Shown: piece by piece, positions 35,478-43,537 of the stretch
How the letters are laid out: each line of letters opens with the position of its first letter
How positions within the stretch are numbered: position 1 is the first letter of the stretch
Assembly (NCBI GenBank): GCA_002704225.1
Contig: PAFU01000038.1
Coordinates: 40,865-84,401 of the forward strand
Direction: 5' to 3'
DNA from: Gammaproteobacteria bacterium
GTDB taxonomy: Bacteria > Pseudomonadota > Gammaproteobacteria > Pseudomonadales > Azotimanducaceae
Length of the DNA: 43,537 nucleotides
Notes under the pieces: generated by a model
The model's database searches: none
What the model saw: the letters and a program-made list of their open reading frames with translations, nothing else
What the model was told of the DNA's origin: nothing
Position numbers and translations under genes: made by a program

Positions 35478-36494
35478 ATGAAGACGGGCATGATGTTGGG
35501 CTTTGAGGATTCCATCAAAACCATGACAGCAATTTCTCGAGAAGCAGAGCGTGCCGGCGTGCATGCGCTGTATACGGTGGATGCCGGGCGCAGCGCTACC
35601 ATCACGGCAGCGGCTGTCATTAACGCCACCGAGCGAGCCCGAGTGGGCACCTACATCGTCAATGCGTTTGCGCGCGAACCGTGGATGACCGGGCTTGAAG
35701 CCCGAGATCTCAATGAAATCAGCGACGGGCGGTTTGTTCTGGGCGTCGGCACCGGCAACCTCCATTTCAACGACCTGTATATGGGCATCGATTCCTCCAA
35801 GGCCAAGGCAAAGATGCAGGATTTCATGGAAATCGTGCGGCTGGTGGTCAGCGGGCAGGCTGCGGAACGGGTACGCTATCAGGGCGATGTGCACCGCATC
35901 CGCTGGCGCGCAACATGGAACCCCACAACGCCGACGCCGCCGGTCTATATGTCAGCCTCTGGGCCCAACATGGTTCGGCTTGCTGGTGCCGTATCCGACG
36001 GTGTGGGCATTGGCATCATGTCCTCAGTGGCATTTGTTCGGGACATTGTTCGCCCCAACGCACGTACCGGGGCAGAACAGGCAGGGCGTGATCCCGATGC
36101 GTTACTCTTTCCCACCGCGGCGACGGTCAGTATCAACAAAGACGAAGACGCCGCACGCACGGCCAGCAAACGCGCCATCTGCAAACTCTATCACCCGATA
36201 CCGCACCCCTATTACGACTCCCAGCTCAGGCAGCTGGGCTTCGCGGAATTTGCCGATCAAGCTACGCAGTTAGTCCCGGCGGGCAGATTGGCCGAAGCCA
36301 TCGATTTGGTGCCCGACGCGGTGGTAGACACCATGACGATCACGGGCACTGTGGCGCAATGTGCCGCACGCATTAAAGAATATGAGGGCGTGGCAGACGA
36401 ATTGATTCTCGCGCGCACAGCCCAGCGCGGCGACACAAATACATTGGCAGACTATGACGACCTATTCGAACTGATTAGCCATTCAGCGGACTGA
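35478..36494 (+). CDS. LLM-class flavin-dependent oxidoreductase
   Basis: A 338-aa TIM-barrel protein of the luciferase-like/F420-dependent reductase superfamily: MKTGMMLGFEDSIKTM at the start, DLNEISDGRFVLGVGTGN, VYMSASGPNMVRLAGAVSDGVGI and a C-terminal ITGTVAQCAARIKEYEGVADELIL. These are the usual motifs for a flavin (FMN or F420) binding oxidoreductase or monooxygenase. A gammaproteobacterium would more often use FMN, but the sequence does not settle it. A strong GGGGAGGG SD precedes the ATG. It is followed by an amidohydrolase-2 gene on the same strand (94 bases), suggesting a small catabolic pair of unknown substrate. Confidence 0.87.
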   Translation: MKTGMMLGFEDSIKTMTAISREAERAGVHALYTVDAGRSATITAAAVINATERARVGTYIVNAFAREPWMTGLEARDLNEISDGRFVLGVGTGNLHFNDLYMGIDSSKAKAKMQDFMEIVRLVVSGQAAERVRYQGDVHRIRWRATWNPTTPTPPVYMSASGPNMVRLAGAVSDGVGIGIMSSVAFVRDIVRPNARTGAEQAGRDPDALLFPTAATVSINKDEDAARTASKRAICKLYHPIPHPYYDSQLRQLGFAEFADQATQLVPAGRLAEAIDLVPDAVVDTMTITGTVAQCAARIKEYEGVADELILARTAQRGDTNTLADYDDLFELISHSAD

Positions 36495-36588: not shown

Positions 36589-37602
36589 ATGCCATTAACC
36601 AAGGAAAGTCAGCGCGCGTGGCTGAATCAAAGCCGCGAAGAAATCCTAGACCCCGCGAGAGAAATCATTGACCCACACCACCACCTTTGGCGGCACAGTG
36701 GCCTGCCGGAATACCTGTTGGCCGATCTTTGGGAAGATACGCAGTCCGGGCACAACATCGTAAAGACCGTGTTCATGGAATGCGGGGCGGAATATCGACA
36801 ATCGGGGCCCGGTCACTTGAAAGCTGTTGGCGAAACCGAGTTTGTGCGAGCAGCGGCAGCGGCCAGCGCGGTACCGGGCAAGGCGGAGATCGCAGGCATT
36901 GTGGCTCACGCCGATTTGGACATGGATCAGGGACTGCTGAAAGAAACCCTGCAGGCTCACGAGACCGCCGGCAACGGTTTGTTCAAGGGAATTCGTCATG
37001 GCGGAGCCCACGACCCCGGTAAAAACCTTCGCTGGATGAATGCCACGCCCTATGCAGATCTGTTCAGTCGCGACAGATTCCGGCGCGGTGTCGCCCTGCT
37101 GGGTGATCTCGGCTACAGCTACGATTCGTGGCACTACCACTTTCAAAACGATGCCTTCACCGATTTGGCCATCGCATGCAGCGGCACAACCATCGTCCTA
37201 GACCACTTTGGCACACCCTGTGGTGTGGGCGATTTTGCCGGCGATATGGCCGCCGTATTTGACCAATGGAAGGCGGGTATCAGCCGAATGGCGCAGTGCC
37301 CGAATGTTGTGGTGAAAATCGGTGGCTTGGCCATGCCAGTGAACGGATTCGGCTGGCACAAACAAGACCGACCGCCGACCTCTGATGAGGTTGTGGCCGC
37401 CCATCGAGACTATTACTTGCACACAATCGATGCCTTTGGTCCGTCACGGTGCATGTTCGAAAGCAATTTCCCCGTCGACAAACGGTCGTTGTCTTACGAC
37501 GTGTATTGGAATGCCATGAAGAAAATTGCAGAAGGCTTTTCGGCTGAAGAGCAGCACGCGCTGTTCTACGGCACCGCCGAGCGCATCTATCGGCTCGGCT
37601 AA
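36589..37602 (+). CDS. Amidohydrolase family 2 (metal-dependent hydrolase/lactonase-like)
   Basis: A 337-aa amidohydrolase_2 protein with the start-of-barrel metal motif IIDPHHHLW (H30, H32), LFKGIRHGGAHD, LDHFGTP and CMFESNFPVDKRSLSYD near the end. The active-site pattern is intact, unlike the protein at 9286-10521. Relatives act as lactonases, decarboxylases or hydrolases on organic acids; the substrate here is unknown. GGAGAG lies about eight bases before the ATG. It probably works with the upstream LLM oxidoreductase (ring opening or lactone formation followed by hydrolysis would be a plausible pairing, inference only). Confidence 0.87.
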   Translation: MPLTKESQRAWLNQSREEILDPAREIIDPHHHLWRHSGLPEYLLADLWEDTQSGHNIVKTVFMECGAEYRQSGPGHLKAVGETEFVRAAAAASAVPGKAEIAGIVAHADLDMDQGLLKETLQAHETAGNGLFKGIRHGGAHDPGKNLRWMNATPYADLFSRDRFRRGVALLGDLGYSYDSWHYHFQNDAFTDLAIACSGTTIVLDHFGTPCGVGDFAGDMAAVFDQWKAGISRMAQCPNVVVKIGGLAMPVNGFGWHKQDRPPTSDEVVAAHRDYYLHTIDAFGPSRCMFESNFPVDKRSLSYDVYWNAMKKIAEGFSAEEQHALFYGTAERIYRLG

Positions 37603-37709: not shown

Positions 37710-39734
37710 ATGTCACGTCGCATTTTAGTCACTAGCGCACTGCCCAACGCCAACGGCCCAATCCACTTGGGTCATGTACTGGAGCAGATCCAAACCGATA
37801 TCTGGGTGCGGTTTCAGCGCATGCGCGGCCATCAGGCGATTTACGTTTGCGCCGATGACACCCACGGTACCGCCACCATGATCAAGGCGGAGCAAGAAGG
37901 CGTAACGGCTGAAGCCCTCGTGGAAAGTATGCGGCAACTGCATGTGGCCGACTCTCAGGGTTTCCTGATCAATCACGACAACTATTACTCCACGCACTCG
38001 CCAGAAAATCAGCTGTACGCCGAGTTAATCTACACACGACTGCAGGAAGCTGGACTGATCTTCAACGAACAAGTGGAGCAGCTGTACGACCCGGAAAAAG
38101 GCCTGTTTTTGGCTGACCGCTTTGTCGTGGGCGGCTGCCCACGCTGCAAAACACCCGATCAGTACGGCGACAACTGCGAAGCCTGCGGCGCGACCTACAA
38201 CGCCAACGAGCTGATTGAGCCAAAATCCATTTTTTCCGGGGCCACGCCCGAGCTGCGCGGATCCGACCATTACTTTTTTGATCTGGCCCGCTACACCGAA
38301 TTTCTGAAGACTTGGACACGCGGCGACGCGGTACAGACCGAAATCGCCAACAAACTGTCCGAGTGGCTGGACGACGGACTGCGCGCTTGGGACATCTCTC
38401 GGGATGCTCCCTATTTTGGCTTCACCATTCCCGGCACCACCGACAAGTACTTCTATGTCTGGATGGACGCCCCCATTGGCTACATGGCCAGTTTCCAGAA
38501 CCTGTGCGATCGGCGCGACGACCTGAACTTTGATGATTTCTGGGCACCAGATTCCAGCGCCGAAGTGCATCACTTTATCGGCAAGGACATCGTCAATTTC
38601 CATGCTCTGTTTTGGCCAGCGGTACTGGATGGCGCGAACTTCCGTACGCCAACCAAGGTGCATGCCCACGGCTTTTTGACCGTGGACGGCACCAAGATGT
38701 CCAAGTCTCGCGGCACATTCATTCTCGCCAAAACCTATTTGGAGCATTTGAACCCCGAGTACTTGCGCTACTACTACGCCGCCAAGCTCAATGGCTCTGT
38801 GGACGATCTTGATCTCAATCTGGAAGATTTTGCCGCGCGAGTAAACTCAGATTTGGTCGGCAAGGTGGTCAACATCGCAAGCCGCACCGCGGGCTTTCTT
38901 GTGAAGCAATTTGATGGGGTGCTGGCCGAACACGTCCACGATCCCGAACTGATGAATCAGTTCCACGCACAGGTCGAGCCCATCGCTGCCCTGTTCGAGC
39001 AAGGGGACACCGCCAAGGCCATGCGTGAAATCACGTCGTTAGCAGACGCGGCGAATCAGTACATCGCCAAACACGAACCGTGGAATATGGCTAAGGATCC
39101 GGAACAGCGTGATGCGGTGCAACTGGTGTGCAGCCAGGGCATCAACATGTTCCGCTGTCTGGCCGTTTTCTTAAAACCCGTGCTACCAAGCACAGCGGAA
39201 AAAGCGGAAGCGTTTTTGAATACCCCACCGCTGACTTGGTCCGATGCCGAGGCGCCTCTGCTGGGTCATACCATCAACAAGTTCAAGCCGATGCTGCAAC
39301 GCATCGAGACCTCCCAAATCGAGAAAATGATCGAAGCCTCGAAAGTGCCGGACACTCAGCCAGCCGAGGCACCGGCAGCCAAGGCCGCAGCAGCGACCGG
39401 CGACAGCGACGTCATCGGCATCGACGACTTCATGAAAATACAGCTTAAGGTAGCGCGTATTATCGACGCCCAACCGGTGGAAGGTGCCGACAAACTGCTG
39501 CAACTCACCCTAGACGTTGGCGACCATCAGCGACAGGTATTTTCTGGCATCAAGGCCGCGTACCAAGCCGAAGATCTGGTGAACCGCCTCACCGTCGTGG
39601 TGGCGAATCTGGCGCCACGCAAAATGCGCTTTGGCGTTTCAGAAGGCATGGTGCTCGCTGCCGGTCCCGGAGGTTCCGATATTTTCCTGCTGTCGCCTGA
39701 CAGCGGAGCGGAACCCGGCATGGACGTGAAGTAA
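37710..39734 (+). CDS. metG: Methionine--tRNA ligase
   Basis: Class I synthetase charging initiator and elongator tRNA-Met. HLGH at 19-22, zinc-binding cysteines C143, C146, C156 and C159 (CPRC...CEAC), and KMSKS at 329-333. A C-terminal tRNA-binding OB domain (about 572-674, [25 protein letters not shown]) joined by an Ala/Pro-rich linker gives a full-length dimeric 674-aa enzyme. A TATATT box at about 37661 in the 107-base upstream gap may be a -10 element. It ends 15 bases before rnfA and may be co-transcribed with the rnf genes. Confidence 0.97.
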
Positions 39735-39749: not shown

Positions 39750-40328
39750 ATGACCGAACTGGGCCTCATTTTATTTGGCGCACTGCTGGTCAATAATTTT
39801 GTATTGGCCCAGTTTCTGGGTCTGTGCCCGTTCATGGGCATTACCCGCAGCTTCGATACCGCGCTGGCCACCGGACTGGCCACCACCTTCGTCCTCGCAC
39901 TGGCTGCGGTGACCTCTCATACCCTCTATCACTTTTTGCTGGTGCCCCTGCAACTGGCCTACCTGAACATCATCGTGTTCATCATCGTCATCGCCGGCTT
40001 GGTGCAGGTGATCCAGCTCTACCTCAAGGCCACCTCGCCGGTACTGCATCAGGTGCTTGGTGTGTATCTGCCGCTGATCACCTCAAACTGCGCTGTGCTG
40101 GGCGTCACCCTGCTTGCCATCAATCAGGAACTGACCCTGCTCGCCACCTTCGTTTTTGCCGTGGGAGCCGCCGGTGGATTCACCCTCGTGATGGTGCTGT
40201 TTGGAGCCCTGCGCGAACAGCTGGCCCAATCCAGCCTGCCCAATGCCTTTGCCGGCACCCCGATCGCTCTGCTCAGTGCGGGACTGATGAGCCTGGCCTT
40301 CATGGGTTTTCAGGGCATCGGTAGCTGA
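39750..40328 (+). CDS. rnfA: Rnf/Rsx electron transport complex subunit A
   Basis: Integral membrane subunit of the Rnf (Rsx) complex, about six helices, 192 aa. It keeps both half-sites for the intramembrane [2Fe-2S] cluster shared with RnfE: C26 in LGLCPFMGI and C114 in SNCAVLGV. MTELGLILFGALLVNNFVLAQFLG is the family N-terminus. The complex couples electron transfer between NADH and ferredoxin to ion movement in many bacteria, or reduces SoxR in enterobacteria. The stop and the rnfB start overlap (TGATG), as within the rest of the operon. Confidence 0.95.
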   Translation: MTELGLILFGALLVNNFVLAQFLGLCPFMGITRSFDTALATGLATTFVLALAAVTSHTLYHFLLVPLQLAYLNIIVFIIVIAGLVQVIQLYLKATSPVLHQVLGVYLPLITSNCAVLGVTLLAINQELTLLATFVFAVGAAGGFTLVMVLFGALREQLAQSSLPNAFAGTPIALLSAGLMSLAFMGFQGIGS

Positions 40329-41263
40329 TGGTCAGCGCGACGCTTTCCCTGTATTCCGTACCGGCGCTGCTGGTTACCCTGCTGGGATTCTTTGCCCTGA
40401 CTGCCACCTTGCTGCAGCGGCGCATCCCCAAGGACACAAATGCGCTGGCGGACCGCATTGAACGGATGCTGCCGCTGACCCAGTGTGCCCAGTGCGGACA
40501 CCCGGGCTGCCGGCCCTATGCCGAAGCCGTAGCCGCAGGCGAAGCCATTGATCTGTGCCCGCCCGGCGGTGTCGAGCTGATCGCCCAACTCAAAGATCTG
40601 ATGGGTGACGACGCACCACAAACCCATGGCGACATGGCCACGGCACCGCCAATCGTGGTCGCAGTCATCGACGAAGCCGCCTGTATCGGCTGCACCCTCT
40701 GTTTGGATCCCTGCCCGGTAGACGCCATCGTCGGGGCACAAGGGTTTATGCACACGGTTATCGAGCAAGAATGCACCGGCTGCGAATTGTGCATCGCACC
40801 TTGCCCTGTGGACTGCATCAGTCTAGAGACCCAGCCCGCCACGTTAGCACCAGCGCCAACACCTTTGTTGGGCCGAGGCTGCATCAACTGCGGTCAGTGC
40901 ATCGACGCCTGCCCGATCGCCCTGCAACCCGATCAGCTTTTGAAGCTCAGTAACGCCCAAGAATGGGCCGCTGCCGAGGCGTTGGATTTGCAGCGCTGTA
41001 TCGAGTGCGGACTCTGCGACCGCGTGTGCCCCAGCGAGATCAATCTGGCCGCTCGCTTTACCGACGCCAAGCGCACTGCGGCAATGCAAACGGCCGTCGC
41101 CGCGGAGAAGCAGCGCATCAAGACACGCTACACCGCCCATCAGCAGCGGCTGATTGCGGTACAAAGTCAGGCAGACAATCGACGCGCAGACCGCCTGGCC
41201 AAGTTGCGTGCCAAGCGCGCGCCGTCTCACACCACAGAACGTACAGACGGCACAGACTCGTGA
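40328..41263 (+). CDS. rnfB: RnfB fused to the C-terminal ferredoxin domain of RnfC
   Basis: A 311-aa iron-sulfur subunit, far longer than E. coli RsxB (192). Order: membrane anchor (about 5-30); Fe-S domain C53, C56, C61, C77; a two-cluster ferredoxin with C119/122/125/129 and C149/152/155/159; then an extension. The extension has C185/188/191/195 (CINCGQCIDACP) and C224/227/230/234 (CIECGLCDRVCP), joined by LQPDQLLKLSNAQEWAAAEALDL, which follows the RnfC C-terminal pattern of CIRCGRC...CP, a LLPQQLYWF-like stretch and CIECGAC...CPSNI. A Lys/Arg/Ala-rich helical tail, also typical of RnfC, ends it. Five clusters are predicted. No rnfC gene exists between this gene and rnfD, so this is read as a domain fusion with loss of the NADH/FMN head. 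Confidence 0.9.
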   Translation: MVSATLSLYSVPALLVTLLGFFALTATLLQRRIPKDTNALADRIERMLPLTQCAQCGHPGCRPYAEAVAAGEAIDLCPPGGVELIAQLKDLMGDDAPQTHGDMATAPPIVVAVIDEAACIGCTLCLDPCPVDAIVGAQGFMHTVIEQECTGCELCIAPCPVDCISLETQPATLAPAPTPLLGRGCINCGQCIDACPIALQPDQLLKLSNAQEWAAAEALDLQRCIECGLCDRVCPSEINLAARFTDAKRTAAMQTAVAAEKQRIKTRYTAHQQRLIAVQSQADNRRADRLAKLRAKRAPSHTTERTDGTDS

Positions 41264-42204
41264 ATCGCACGACCCGCAAGACCCAACCCACCGGCAACAT
41301 CATGCATCGGGTGTCCCTCGCCCTGCTACCCGGCGCACTGGCCATGGCATGGCAGTACGGCGTTGGCGTGATCTGGAATCTACTGTGGCTGGTGGTGCTT
41401 TGTGCGCTGGTGGAAATCCTTTGCAGCAGCCTGCGTCATGGCGTCGCCAAGGCTCGAAGCCAACGCTTTCAGCTTGACGACGGCACCACACTGCTGGCCG
41501 CCCTGCTCATTGGCATCTGCCTGCCCCCGTCGGTATCGCCGGCCATCTTGTGCGTGGCCGCACTGGCCGCCATTGGTCTGGCAAAGCACGCCTACGGTGG
41601 TCTGGGACAGAATATTTTCAATCCCGCCATGGTGGGTTATGCCGTGATCTTGTTGAGTTTTCCGCTGGCGCTGGCCACATGGCCTACCGCCGCCCCCGAC
41701 GGTTTCACCGGAGCCACACTGCTCAGCGAGTTCCGTTATCGAGGTGGCATCACCGCTGACGAGTTTTTCCTCAATCGCGTTGCCGCTCATCCCAACCTCA
41801 TCAGTGCCGGACTGTTTGGCTTGGGCGGTGTGTGGCTGATTCAGCAAGGCATCGTGCATTGGCGTATTCCGCTGACGGTACTGGCCACCGTTGGCGTTCT
41901 GGCCAGCGTCTTTCATGACCAAGGCAGCTCCGCCAGCCTGGGGTCGGCATGGTTTCATTGGACCACTGGCGGCACCGTGGCCGCAGCGTTTTTCGTTGCC
42001 ACCGATCCGGTCACCCACCCCGCCAGACCCGGTCATCAAATCGCTTTTGCCCTACTGATTGGCTGCCTGCTGTTTTTGATTCGCACTCAGGGCAACCTTC
42101 CCGACGGCATCGCCTTTGCCGTGTTGTTGGCCAATTGCACAACCCCGCTGTTCAACCGCATCCATCGTCAAAAAATTGCCGAGGGGGTCAGCGGCCATGA
42201 GTAA
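41260..42204 (+). CDS. rnfD: Rnf/Rsx electron transport complex subunit D
   Basis: Membrane subunit carrying covalent FMN, 314 aa. The flavinylation threonine is T153 in DGFTGATLL, matching the SGAT-like motif of RnfD. GQNIFNPAMVGYA and ATDPVTHP are family segments, with multiple hydrophobic helices. The start is GTG 41260, overlapping the rnfB stop (GTGA); this is the only sensible start since the longer open frame runs through rnfB. It directly follows rnfB, whereas in E. coli and Pseudomonas rnfC lies between them. Confidence 0.93.
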   Translation: MNRTTRKTQPTGNIMHRVSLALLPGALAMAWQYGVGVIWNLLWLVVLCALVEILCSSLRHGVAKARSQRFQLDDGTTLLAALLIGICLPPSVSPAILCVAALAAIGLAKHAYGGLGQNIFNPAMVGYAVILLSFPLALATWPTAAPDGFTGATLLSEFRYRGGITADEFFLNRVAAHPNLISAGLFGLGGVWLIQQGIVHWRIPLTVLATVGVLASVFHDQGSSASLGSAWFHWTTGGTVAAAFFVATDPVTHPARPGHQIAFALLIGCLLFLIRTQGNLPDGIAFAVLLANCTTPLFNRIHRQKIAEGVSGHE

Positions 42205-42715
42205 CCGATTCACCTCCGCCGCGGCCCTGCTGGTGATCGGCGGGCTGTGCGGACTTGCGCTCACCCAAACGTATGACATCACCCGAGCGCCGGTGGAGGA
42301 AAACCGAATCCGACAGGCCCAAGCCCTGCTCAGCGAGTTGCTCGGAAGCGAAGTGCCCACAGACCTGATGTGGCAAAACGACATCGCCAACGCCTGCGGC
42401 GAATGGCAATTTGCGCGAGGCGCCAGCGTGGGCTACGCCGGACCCATCGAGTATCTTGCCCTGCTGCGACAAGACCGCATCAGACTGCGCGTCACTCGAC
42501 ACCAAGAAACACCGGGCATTGCAGACTTCATCGATCACCGCAAAGATCCGTATCTGCCCAGCCTCGACGACACGTTGCTGTCAGACTGGTCACAACTGGA
42601 CAACATCAGTGGCGCCACCATTACCCACAAGGCCCTGAGAGAAATGGCGGATCAAGCCCGTACCAAACTGACCTATCAGCGCGAGCAAACACACTGTGAG
42701 GCAACCCGTGAGTAA
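42197..42715 (+). CDS. rnfG: Rnf/Rsx electron transport complex subunit G (short form)
   Basis: Membrane-anchored, periplasmic flavoprotein with covalent FMN. One N-terminal helix (about 7-24); the flavin site is T141 in ISGATIT; VTRHQETPGIADFI is the conserved RnfG strand. It is 172 aa, about 30 residues shorter than E. coli RsxG (206), with the loss mainly between the ETPG segment and the SGAT motif. It overlaps the rnfD end by eight bases. The key motif is intact, so function is likely retained. Confidence 0.9.
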   Translation: MSNRFTSAAALLVIGGLCGLALTQTYDITRAPVEENRIRQAQALLSELLGSEVPTDLMWQNDIANACGEWQFARGASVGYAGPIEYLALLRQDRIRLRVTRHQETPGIADFIDHRKDPYLPSLDDTLLSDWSQLDNISGATITHKALREMADQARTKLTYQREQTHCEATRE

Positions 42716-43367
42716 CAGCGATTTCAGCCGCGCGACCATCGCCAACAACCCAGCGTGGGCGCAACTGTTGGGCCTCTGCCCGCTGCTTGCCGTCAGCAAT
42801 ACCGTTGCCAATGCGACGGGACTGGCACTGGCCAGCGCCTTCGTGGTCATCGGCGCCAACACCTCGATCTCGCTGCTGCGGCGCATCATTCCTGACGAGG
42901 CCAGACTGCCCTGTTTCGTGCTGATCATCGCCACCTTCACCACCCTCACGGTTATGGTGCTGGAGGCCTACGCCTTCGACCTGTACAGCCGCATCGCTCT
43001 GTTCGTGCAAATCATCGTCACTAACTGCATGATCTTGGGCCGGGCCGAAGTCTTCGCCTCGCGCCAACCCGTAGGCCGGGCGCTGATGGATGCCCTCGGC
43101 ACCGCGGTCGGTTTCGCCATCGCCCTGCTGGCCTTGGGCGCCGTGCGGGAAATCCTCGGGCAGGGCACACTGATGGCAGACATGGATCTGCTGTTTGGCC
43201 CCGCCGCTGCCACGCTGACCATCGAGGTTTTCGCCACACCACCGCTGGCGCTGGCGGTACTGCCCCCCGGGGCGTTTATTATCGCGGCCCTCATGTTCGC
43301 CCTCGTGCAGAGCTTGACGAGCCACCCCAACCCATCGTCTTCTCACACTGTTTCGGATGCCCAATGA
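42708..43367 (+). CDS. rnfE: Rnf/Rsx electron transport complex subunit E
   Basis: Integral membrane partner of RnfA, 219 aa with about six helices. It supplies the other two cysteines of the shared [2Fe-2S] site: C24 in LGLCPLLAV and C107 in VTNCMILGR. The start is GTG 42708, overlapping the rnfG stop and with GAGG eight bases upstream; a GTG at 42696 is possible. Its stop overlaps the nth start (ATGA). The C-terminal LPPGAFIIAALMFALVQ is the family end, followed by a Ser/Pro tail. Confidence 0.93.
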   Translation: MSNSDFSRATIANNPAWAQLLGLCPLLAVSNTVANATGLALASAFVVIGANTSISLLRRIIPDEARLPCFVLIIATFTTLTVMVLEAYAFDLYSRIALFVQIIVTNCMILGRAEVFASRQPVGRALMDALGTAVGFAIALLALGAVREILGQGTLMADMDLLFGPAAATLTIEVFATPPLALAVLPPGAFIIAALMFALVQSLTSHPNPSSSHTVSDAQ

Positions 43368-43537
43368 ACCCCGCAAAACGTCATGAAATATTTTCTCGCC
43401 TGCGCGATGCCAACCCCAACCCCACCACCGAACTGAACTACAGCTCGCCCTTTGAGCTGTTGATTGCGGTACTGCTCTCGGCCCAAGCCACCGACGTAGG
43501 AGTGAATAAAGCCACCGGCCCTCTGTTCGCCGCCGCC
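43364..43537 (+). CDS. nth: Endonuclease III (5' part, runs off window)
   Basis: The N-terminal 58 residues of the base-excision repair DNA glycosylase/AP lyase that removes oxidised pyrimidines. MNPAKRHEIFSRLRDANPNP and FELLIAVLLSAQATDVGVNKAT match the Nth N-terminus. The ATG overlaps the rnfE stop. Location after rnfE is conserved in many gammaproteobacteria. The catalytic Lys, Asp and Fe-S loop lie beyond the window. Confidence 0.95.
   Translation, partial: MNPAKRHEIFSRLRDANPNPTTELNYSSPFELLIAVLLSAQATDVGVNKATGPLFAAA

Follow-up and report, generated by a model that had tools for sequence, protein, structure and literature searches.

The membrane-bound electron pump Rnf is regarded as a ferredoxin:NAD+ enzyme. 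In the solved complexes, electrons follow a U-shaped path that runs from ferredoxin through RnfB, RnfA/E, RnfG, RnfD and the RnfC clusters to FMN and finally to NAD (PMC9588780, PMC11889175, PMC12174285). The clusters of RnfB and those of RnfC lie at opposite ends of this path, 25 Å apart in Clostridium tetanomorphum and more than 30 Å apart in Acetobacterium woodii (PMC9588780, PMC11889175), and fusing the two subunits does not by itself bring their clusters together. The same papers place the RnfC clusters next to RnfD (PMC9588780, PMC12174285), whose N-terminal arm is buried in RnfC (PMC9588780); the C-terminal helix of RnfC, which is longer in Azotobacter vinelandii (PMC12174285), contacts RnfB (PMC11889175). 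The number of clusters carried by RnfB varies in nature from three to eight (PMC11889175, PMC12174285).

Results

The window (the whole stretch of DNA that was analysed, 43,537 nucleotides) carries an rnf operon in the order rnfA–fusion–rnfD–rnfG–rnfE, compared with A–B–C–D–G–E in the outgroup loci. Its features are as follows.

37710..39734, + strand: metG, the upstream neighbour, named from its ORF and sequence; also found upstream in several relatives
39750..40328, + strand: rnfA (TIGR01943, 240.3 bits, over cut-off)
40328..40825, + strand: RnfB portion (residues 1-166 of the fusion), with a membrane helix, a four-Cys [4Fe-4S] domain (C53-C77) and a two-cluster ferredoxin domain (C119-C159); TIGR01944
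40826..40873, + strand: linker of the fusion, residues 167-182, unconserved in an alignment of fusions
40874..41044, + strand: RnfC ferredoxin module, residues 183-239, with two [4Fe-4S] motifs (C185-C195 and C224-C234); matched by RsxC and by PDB RnfC chains
41045..41263, + strand: helical tail of the RnfC type (residues 240-311) plus the stop codon; RsxC profile match up to position 480 of 556, helix in the model
41260..42204, + strand: rnfD, GTG start (TIGR01946, 242.2 bits, over cut-off)
42197..42715, + strand: rnfG, flavin motif SGATIT (TIGR01947, 48.2 bits, below the cut-off of 102)
42696..43367, + strand: rnfE (NF009070, 243.2 bits, over cut-off; TIGR01948, 209 of 213.4, just below)
43364..43537, + strand: first part of an nth-like ORF (by eye, endonuclease III) that runs beyond the end of the window; compare L212, 1229-1864

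The stop codon of rnfA (40326-40328) shares one base with the start of the fusion (40328), and the stop codon of the fusion (41261-41263) overlaps the GTG start of rnfD (41260) in a four-base overlap, which leaves no room for an rnfC between these genes. No new neighbour gene was seen within the operon. Outside the operon, two ORFs of the window (35478-36494 and 36589-37602) resemble by eye an LLM-class flavin oxidoreductase and an amidohydrolase, respectively. As a test for an Rnf complex, RnfA, RnfD and RnfE (the last on NF009070) of the window score above their profile cut-offs and RnfG below. Both [2Fe-2S] ligand cysteines are there in RnfA (FLGLC and SNC) and in RnfE (LGLC and TNC); RnfD has the flavin motif TGAT, and the SPHxH-type motif of its N-terminal arm is absent.

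The fused ORF (40328-41263, + strand) starts with ATG and encodes 311 amino acids. Read directly, its cysteines fall in the four-Cys domain of RnfB (C53/C56/C61/C77), in the RnfB ferredoxin domain (C119/C122/C125/C129 and C149/C152/C155/C159, plus C163) and in the RnfC-type module (C185/C188/C191/C195 and C224/C227/C230/C234), which gives 1+2+2, that is five, predicted [4Fe-4S] clusters. An earlier, sequence-only reading of this stretch had described a complete RnfB followed by two further cluster motifs (C185-C195 and C224-C234), with five predicted clusters overall; all of the motifs lie where it placed them, and a direct count of the Cys motifs gives the same number. In an NCBIfam scan, rnfB TIGR01944 covers residues 22-172 (193 bits for a cut-off of 68.7), RsxC covers residues 183-296, corresponding to profile positions 367-480 of 556 (82 bits for a cut-off of 345), and rnfC TIGR01945 covers residues 184-250 (68 bits for a cut-off of 245.95). 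The cut-offs of the RnfC/RsxC families are thus not reached, the match being with their C-terminal part only, and neither Complex1_51K nor RnfC_N (the NADH/FMN domain) was found in the fusion protein with Pfam.

The RnfB part is matched by Pfam FeS and Fer4_21, and a PDB sequence search aligns residues 4-173 of the fusion with PDB chain 8ahx_B (E 1.2e-27). The tail is predicted with high confidence to form a single helix (residues 240-297). The model of the whole fusion, in which residues 6-32 form a helix, is of low confidence (mean pLDDT 66, pTM 0.35, with the RnfB ferredoxin domain mostly below 50), so the relative placement of the two modules is unreadable from it. The last RnfB Cys and the first RnfC Cys are separated by 20-49 residues in 62 fusions (median 24). 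All eight RnfC-type Cys are invariant among 18 aligned fusions, and of 64 fused loci, a set that includes one genome twice (L044 and L133), 62 have the complete pattern of 20 Cys; one of the two misses is truncated at a contig end and the other, G086, has two Cys replaced.

Residues 182-311, scanned alone, score 87 bits with RsxC, 70 with rnfC and 53 with archaeal rnfC (rnfC_Methano), the next family scoring 34, and no RnfB profile is found among the best 25 of 40 matches. The PDB sequence search returns the RnfC chains 8ahx_C, 9eri_C and 7zc6_C, which cover the module with E values of 1e-11 to 7e-9. A polyferredoxin of formylmethanofuran dehydrogenase (9sw6_H) totals 51 bits versus 49 for the RnfC chains, a score that is the sum of short stretches, the best of them reaching 26 bits. 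We also modelled residues 182-311 separately (130 residues, mean pLDDT 87.9, from 32 sequences including RnfC modules). A fold search with this model is led by five RnfC chains (9eri, 8rbq, 8rbm, 8ahx and 7zc6; probability 1.00, E 0.0014 to 0.018), which come from three solved Rnf complexes, followed by fumarate reductase subunits (E 0.15). Fused and separate RnfC alike most often have a spacing of 28 residues between the two Cys motifs, and a module tree (few columns, four RnfB rows) splits the RnfC modules from the RnfB ferredoxin domains at 100%. As judged from sequence, the added module and its helical tail are those of RnfC.

The fusion of an RnfC ferredoxin module to RnfB, as proposed by the sequence-only reading, is therefore upheld by the profile ranking, the fold search and the module tree, which agree. 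The alternative that it had raised, a generic ferredoxin extension of RnfB, for example of the betaproteobacterial type, was dropped: when the region (182-311) is searched against RnfC and RnfB profiles the RnfC profiles are the best, three of them ranking first, the module tree sets the RnfB domains apart, and the six betaproteobacterial extensions that we checked are all Cys-free. That reading was thus right on the identity of the module, but it had overlooked the absence of the NADH/FMN domain of RnfC, which shows in the gene content of the operon and, at the level of the genome, in profile searches.

The genome of the window (2.9 Mb in 63 contigs, 97.4% complete, 6.65% contamination) has the fusion as its sole match in a search with the RnfC profile, and no match at all to the Complex1_51K (NuoF/RnfC-type) domain. 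RnfC_N gives two weak matches, both under the cut-off, one of which falls on an accB-like ORF (biotin carrier protein, by eye) and the other in a short locus with no ORF of at least 150 amino acids. A separate RnfC elsewhere in the genome was dropped on the basis of these three profile searches. This is, as far as its sequence can tell, an Rnf operon without the NADH/FMN module, and the absence of this domain alters the biology more than the fusion itself. The second RnfD-family match in the genome is an nqrB-like ORF adjoined by nqrA- and nqrC-like ORFs (contig C27; by eye), so that an NQR probably takes care of NADH oxidation. The genome also encodes an ApbE flavin transferase, away from rnf (G000 contig C33 50517-51356), with no nqr genes near it among the ORFs of at least 160 amino acids in the surrounding 16 kb.

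The family of the window consists of gammaproteobacteria, some of them marine. In this GTDB family, 184 of 206 genomes have a match to the fusion protein, and in at least 100 of the 206, that of the window included, a single alignment begins in the RnfB part and reaches query residue 241 or further. This count of 100, in which seven alignment rows carry an internal stop, is a lower bound among the matches listed, and some fusions align in two pieces. The single-alignment fusions are spread over at least 19 of the 37 genera of the family. The GenBank record QXZU01000203.1 of the K189A clade, from the same genus, also has the fusion, and its proteins are identical to those of G016 in the tree. 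A class-wide draw of 369 genomes gave five others in which a single alignment covers both parts (G357, G237, G279, G254 and G235), belonging to four other families, and two more (G370 and G456) that are fused once their sequence is read; the fusion is present in at least seven genomes of four families outside that of the window.

In 11 genomes searched from fusion-bearing groups, among them that of the window, no RnfC reaches the cut-off. Two genomes of the family (G068 and G082) have both the fusion and a separate RnfC over the cut-off, the latter in a second Rnf cluster. Second clusters of this type (L196 in G041, L197 in G082 and L198 in G068) show the order C–D–G–E–A with an RnfC over the cut-off, and in G041 the cluster is followed by a B-like ORF; all three loci were set aside from the tree.

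The tree was computed from RnfA, RnfB, RnfD and RnfE by a quick search with SH-aLRT, for the 91 of 106 loci with at least three of these genes and a clear architecture. As the loci were fetched mostly for matching the fusion, proportions among them are not population rates. With respect to recurrence and INTERMEDIATES, the fusion label needs at least nine changes on this tree of 91 loci, five of which are forced by starred branches, gains and losses of the fusion being indistinguishable. The related loci range from a full RnfC through a shorter, diverged separate RnfC, a whole fusion, a mini-RnfC and the module fusion to a Cys-free tail. The whole B–C fusion is seen in G075 (L190 1603-3894), where RnfB, an RnfC NADH domain that has diverged, and the ferredoxin module share one 764-residue frame. 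A stand-alone mini-RnfC, made up of the ferredoxin module and tail only, is found in three loci (G049, G080 and Pseudohongiella HyVt-330, the last scoring 123 bits to RsxC); being unfused, it must presumably bind at its old site without the help of a fusion.

Other loci are more reduced. In two genomes of family f136, the five-cluster fusion stands alone between metG and nth (L209 2882-3799 in G235 and L235 3796-4830 in G456); it seems, by eye, to have no membrane helix, and no RnfD match was found in either genome. Three loci of family f155 (L210 in G370, L208 and L233 in G254) have a partial core, with His replacing the first ligand Cys of RnfA, and neither rnfG nor rnfE was seen beside their rnfD and nth. 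In G370, RnfD is without its flavin motif, and an ATPase-like ORF lies between the fusion and rnfD.

Several Pseudomonas loci have an RnfB with a long Cys-free tail (L075, L068, L087, L089, L091, L099, L106, L110, L118 and L121). The tail in L075 (6010-7017, P. frederiksbergensis) matches that of RsxC with an E value of 3.4e-8; no rnfC lies between rnfB and rnfD in this locus, and its RnfA is without both [2Fe-2S] ligand cysteines. The tail in L068 matches RsxC with an E value of 0.0012 and the RsxB profile better, and that in L100 matches the RsxB profile only. An RnfC origin of the Cys-free tails thus appears supported in L075, is weak in L068 and is not seen in L100, and Ala/Arg/Glu-rich helices may match the RsxC tail by composition.

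The ligands of the Rnf core are retained in most of the fused loci. The first ligand Cys of RnfA is found in 59 of 62 (the exceptions being two f155 loci with His and one sequence cut short) and the second in 60 of 62 by pattern, both misses reading ANC and so having Cys there too. RnfE has both of its ligand Cys in all 49 loci; the flavin motif is present in 48 of 53 for RnfG and, with a loose pattern, in 48 of 58 for RnfD. Of the tree rows, 32 retain the NADH domain of RnfC; 17 of these have the RnfD arm motif and the other 15 lack it, as do all 59 rows that lost the domain (a pattern match in L185 was scored absent by hand because it sits before the likely start). Phylogenetically independent pairs for arm loss and NADH-domain loss give two to three for and none against, which is not significant, and the arm is also missing in loci of the window's family with a separate RnfC. 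The arm was therefore rejected as a marker of NADH-domain loss: the trend is in the expected direction, but is neither significant nor specific. Decay of the flavin site before fusion was dropped as well. A narrower pattern suggested loss, and a wider one found the glycine-rich motif of the RnfC flavin site in 13 of the 14 family loci that keep the domain versus 8 of 19 other RnfC, this last figure making the pattern a poor test.

Discussion

In the fused loci, rnfC has, by its sequence, been reduced to its two-cluster module and helical tail and joined to the 3' end of rnfB, the core of RnfA, RnfD, RnfG and RnfE being kept. Our preferred but tentative reading, on which we are close to evenly divided, is that the complex is an Rnf-type redox-driven ion pump without an NADH site, with the RnfC module at RnfD and a soluble carrier instead of NADH. 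The module would still sit at the cytoplasmic side of RnfD and would relay electrons between the riboflavin of RnfD and the cytosol. A canonical RnfC is gripped by way of its NADH domain and the RnfD arm; as both are gone here, the module would be kept in place by being covalently joined to RnfB. Electrons would enter or leave via a soluble carrier (a ferredoxin, a flavodoxin or a reductase) docking on the exposed clusters, and the core, working against the ion gradient or with it, would carry them to the RnfB clusters and on to a second acceptor of low potential. The partial core in f155 and the fusions without RnfD in f136 suggest that the fused clusters can work without RnfD, which counts against this tethering of the module at RnfD.

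A carrier-to-carrier booster without nicotinamide is conceivable, if on the unlikely side: electrons would pass from a soluble ferredoxin, flavodoxin or reductase to the tethered RnfC clusters, through the core to the RnfB clusters and on to an acceptor of lower potential, at the expense of the ion gradient. If this were true, one subunit would form both ends of the electron path.

The sequence-only reading had proposed a continuous wire. We consider it rather unlikely that the module has left RnfD and forms such a wire with RnfB, in which a soluble donor would feed the RnfC clusters, then the RnfB clusters, RnfA/E, RnfG and RnfD, which would hand the electrons on to a different acceptor, for instance quinone, in the manner of NQR. 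The variable number of RnfB clusters and the short linker of the fusions would suit such a wire, and the strongest evidence for it is provided by the five-cluster orphans of f136 (G235 and G456), which have no RnfD. However, the mini-RnfC also occurs unfused, and the quinone exit is unsupported: NqrB uses extra N-terminal helices that RnfD does not have (PMC12174285), and the N-terminus predicted for RnfD in the window is shorter, not longer. Moreover, transfer from quinol to ferredoxin would presumably be too steep for the pump.

The two f136 orphans could also point to a polyferredoxin independent of the pump, anchored in the membrane or soluble, that would store electrons for oxidation-sensing or iron-sulfur enzymes while the remainder of Rnf is being lost. 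The His ligand of RnfA in f155, the RnfD without flavin motif in G370 and the Pseudomonas L075 locus, with its Cys-free RnfB tail and its RnfA without both ligand cysteines, go in the same direction. Yet nearly all of the loci examined in the window's family retain the core ligands, and we find this explanation improbable.

The exposed RnfC clusters need some partner and soluble reductases are common, so that an unlinked flavoprotein docking on the fused clusters might supply the NADH site in trans and restore an ordinary Rnf activity overall. We give this a slim chance, as the profile search found no Complex1_51K (NuoF/RnfC-type) domain in the genome and the operon has no new neighbour. Finally, despite a fragmented assembly (63 contigs, 6.65% contamination), an assembly or annotation artefact, which the sequence-only reading had named as a risk, can practically be dismissed, since the same architecture recurs widely in related genomes, dozens of them separately assembled and named GenBank records among them.

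Returning to the preferred reading of a pump without an NADH site, it would probably work with a different electron partner than standard Rnf. That the NADH module has repeatedly been lost from an otherwise retained complex suggests a pump that can operate uncoupled from NADH. The fused loci would then be natural minimal versions from which to learn where electrons enter and exit, which portion of RnfC is required and what keeps it in the complex. For metabolic models of such bacteria it is relevant that NADH-dependent reduction of ferredoxin cannot be assumed just because a genome carries an rnf operon. Among titles and abstract openings of the open-licence literature, we found neither an RnfB–RnfC fusion nor an Rnf without the RnfC NADH domain, and 'rnfBC', where looked up, was part of gene names or lists.

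Comparison with known systems

The RnfB of A. vinelandii Rnf1 (8ahx chain B) has the same helix, four-Cys and two-cluster domains, which correspond to residues 4-173; the protein of the window differs in continuing into the RnfC ferredoxin module and tail. RnfC/RsxC (8ahx_C, 9eri_C and 7zc6_C) share with the fusion the two-cluster module, the 28-residue spacing and the long helical tail, whereas their N-terminal NADH/FMN part, about 360 profile positions, is missing here, and the module is not a separate subunit. The large RnfB proteins of C. tetanomorphum and A. woodii also have more than three clusters, but their extra ferredoxin segments belong to RnfB itself and a complete RnfC coexists with them (PMC9588780, PMC11889175). 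The Pseudomonas L075 RnfB carries a similar RsxC-like tail, with no rnfC before rnfD, but, unlike the fusion, this tail has neither a ferredoxin module nor any Cys. The NqrA subunit of NQR is likewise an RnfC homologue that no longer handles NADH. NqrA keeps the fold and loses the cofactors (PMC4014512, PMC12174285), whereas the fusion retains the clusters and has no NADH fold any more.
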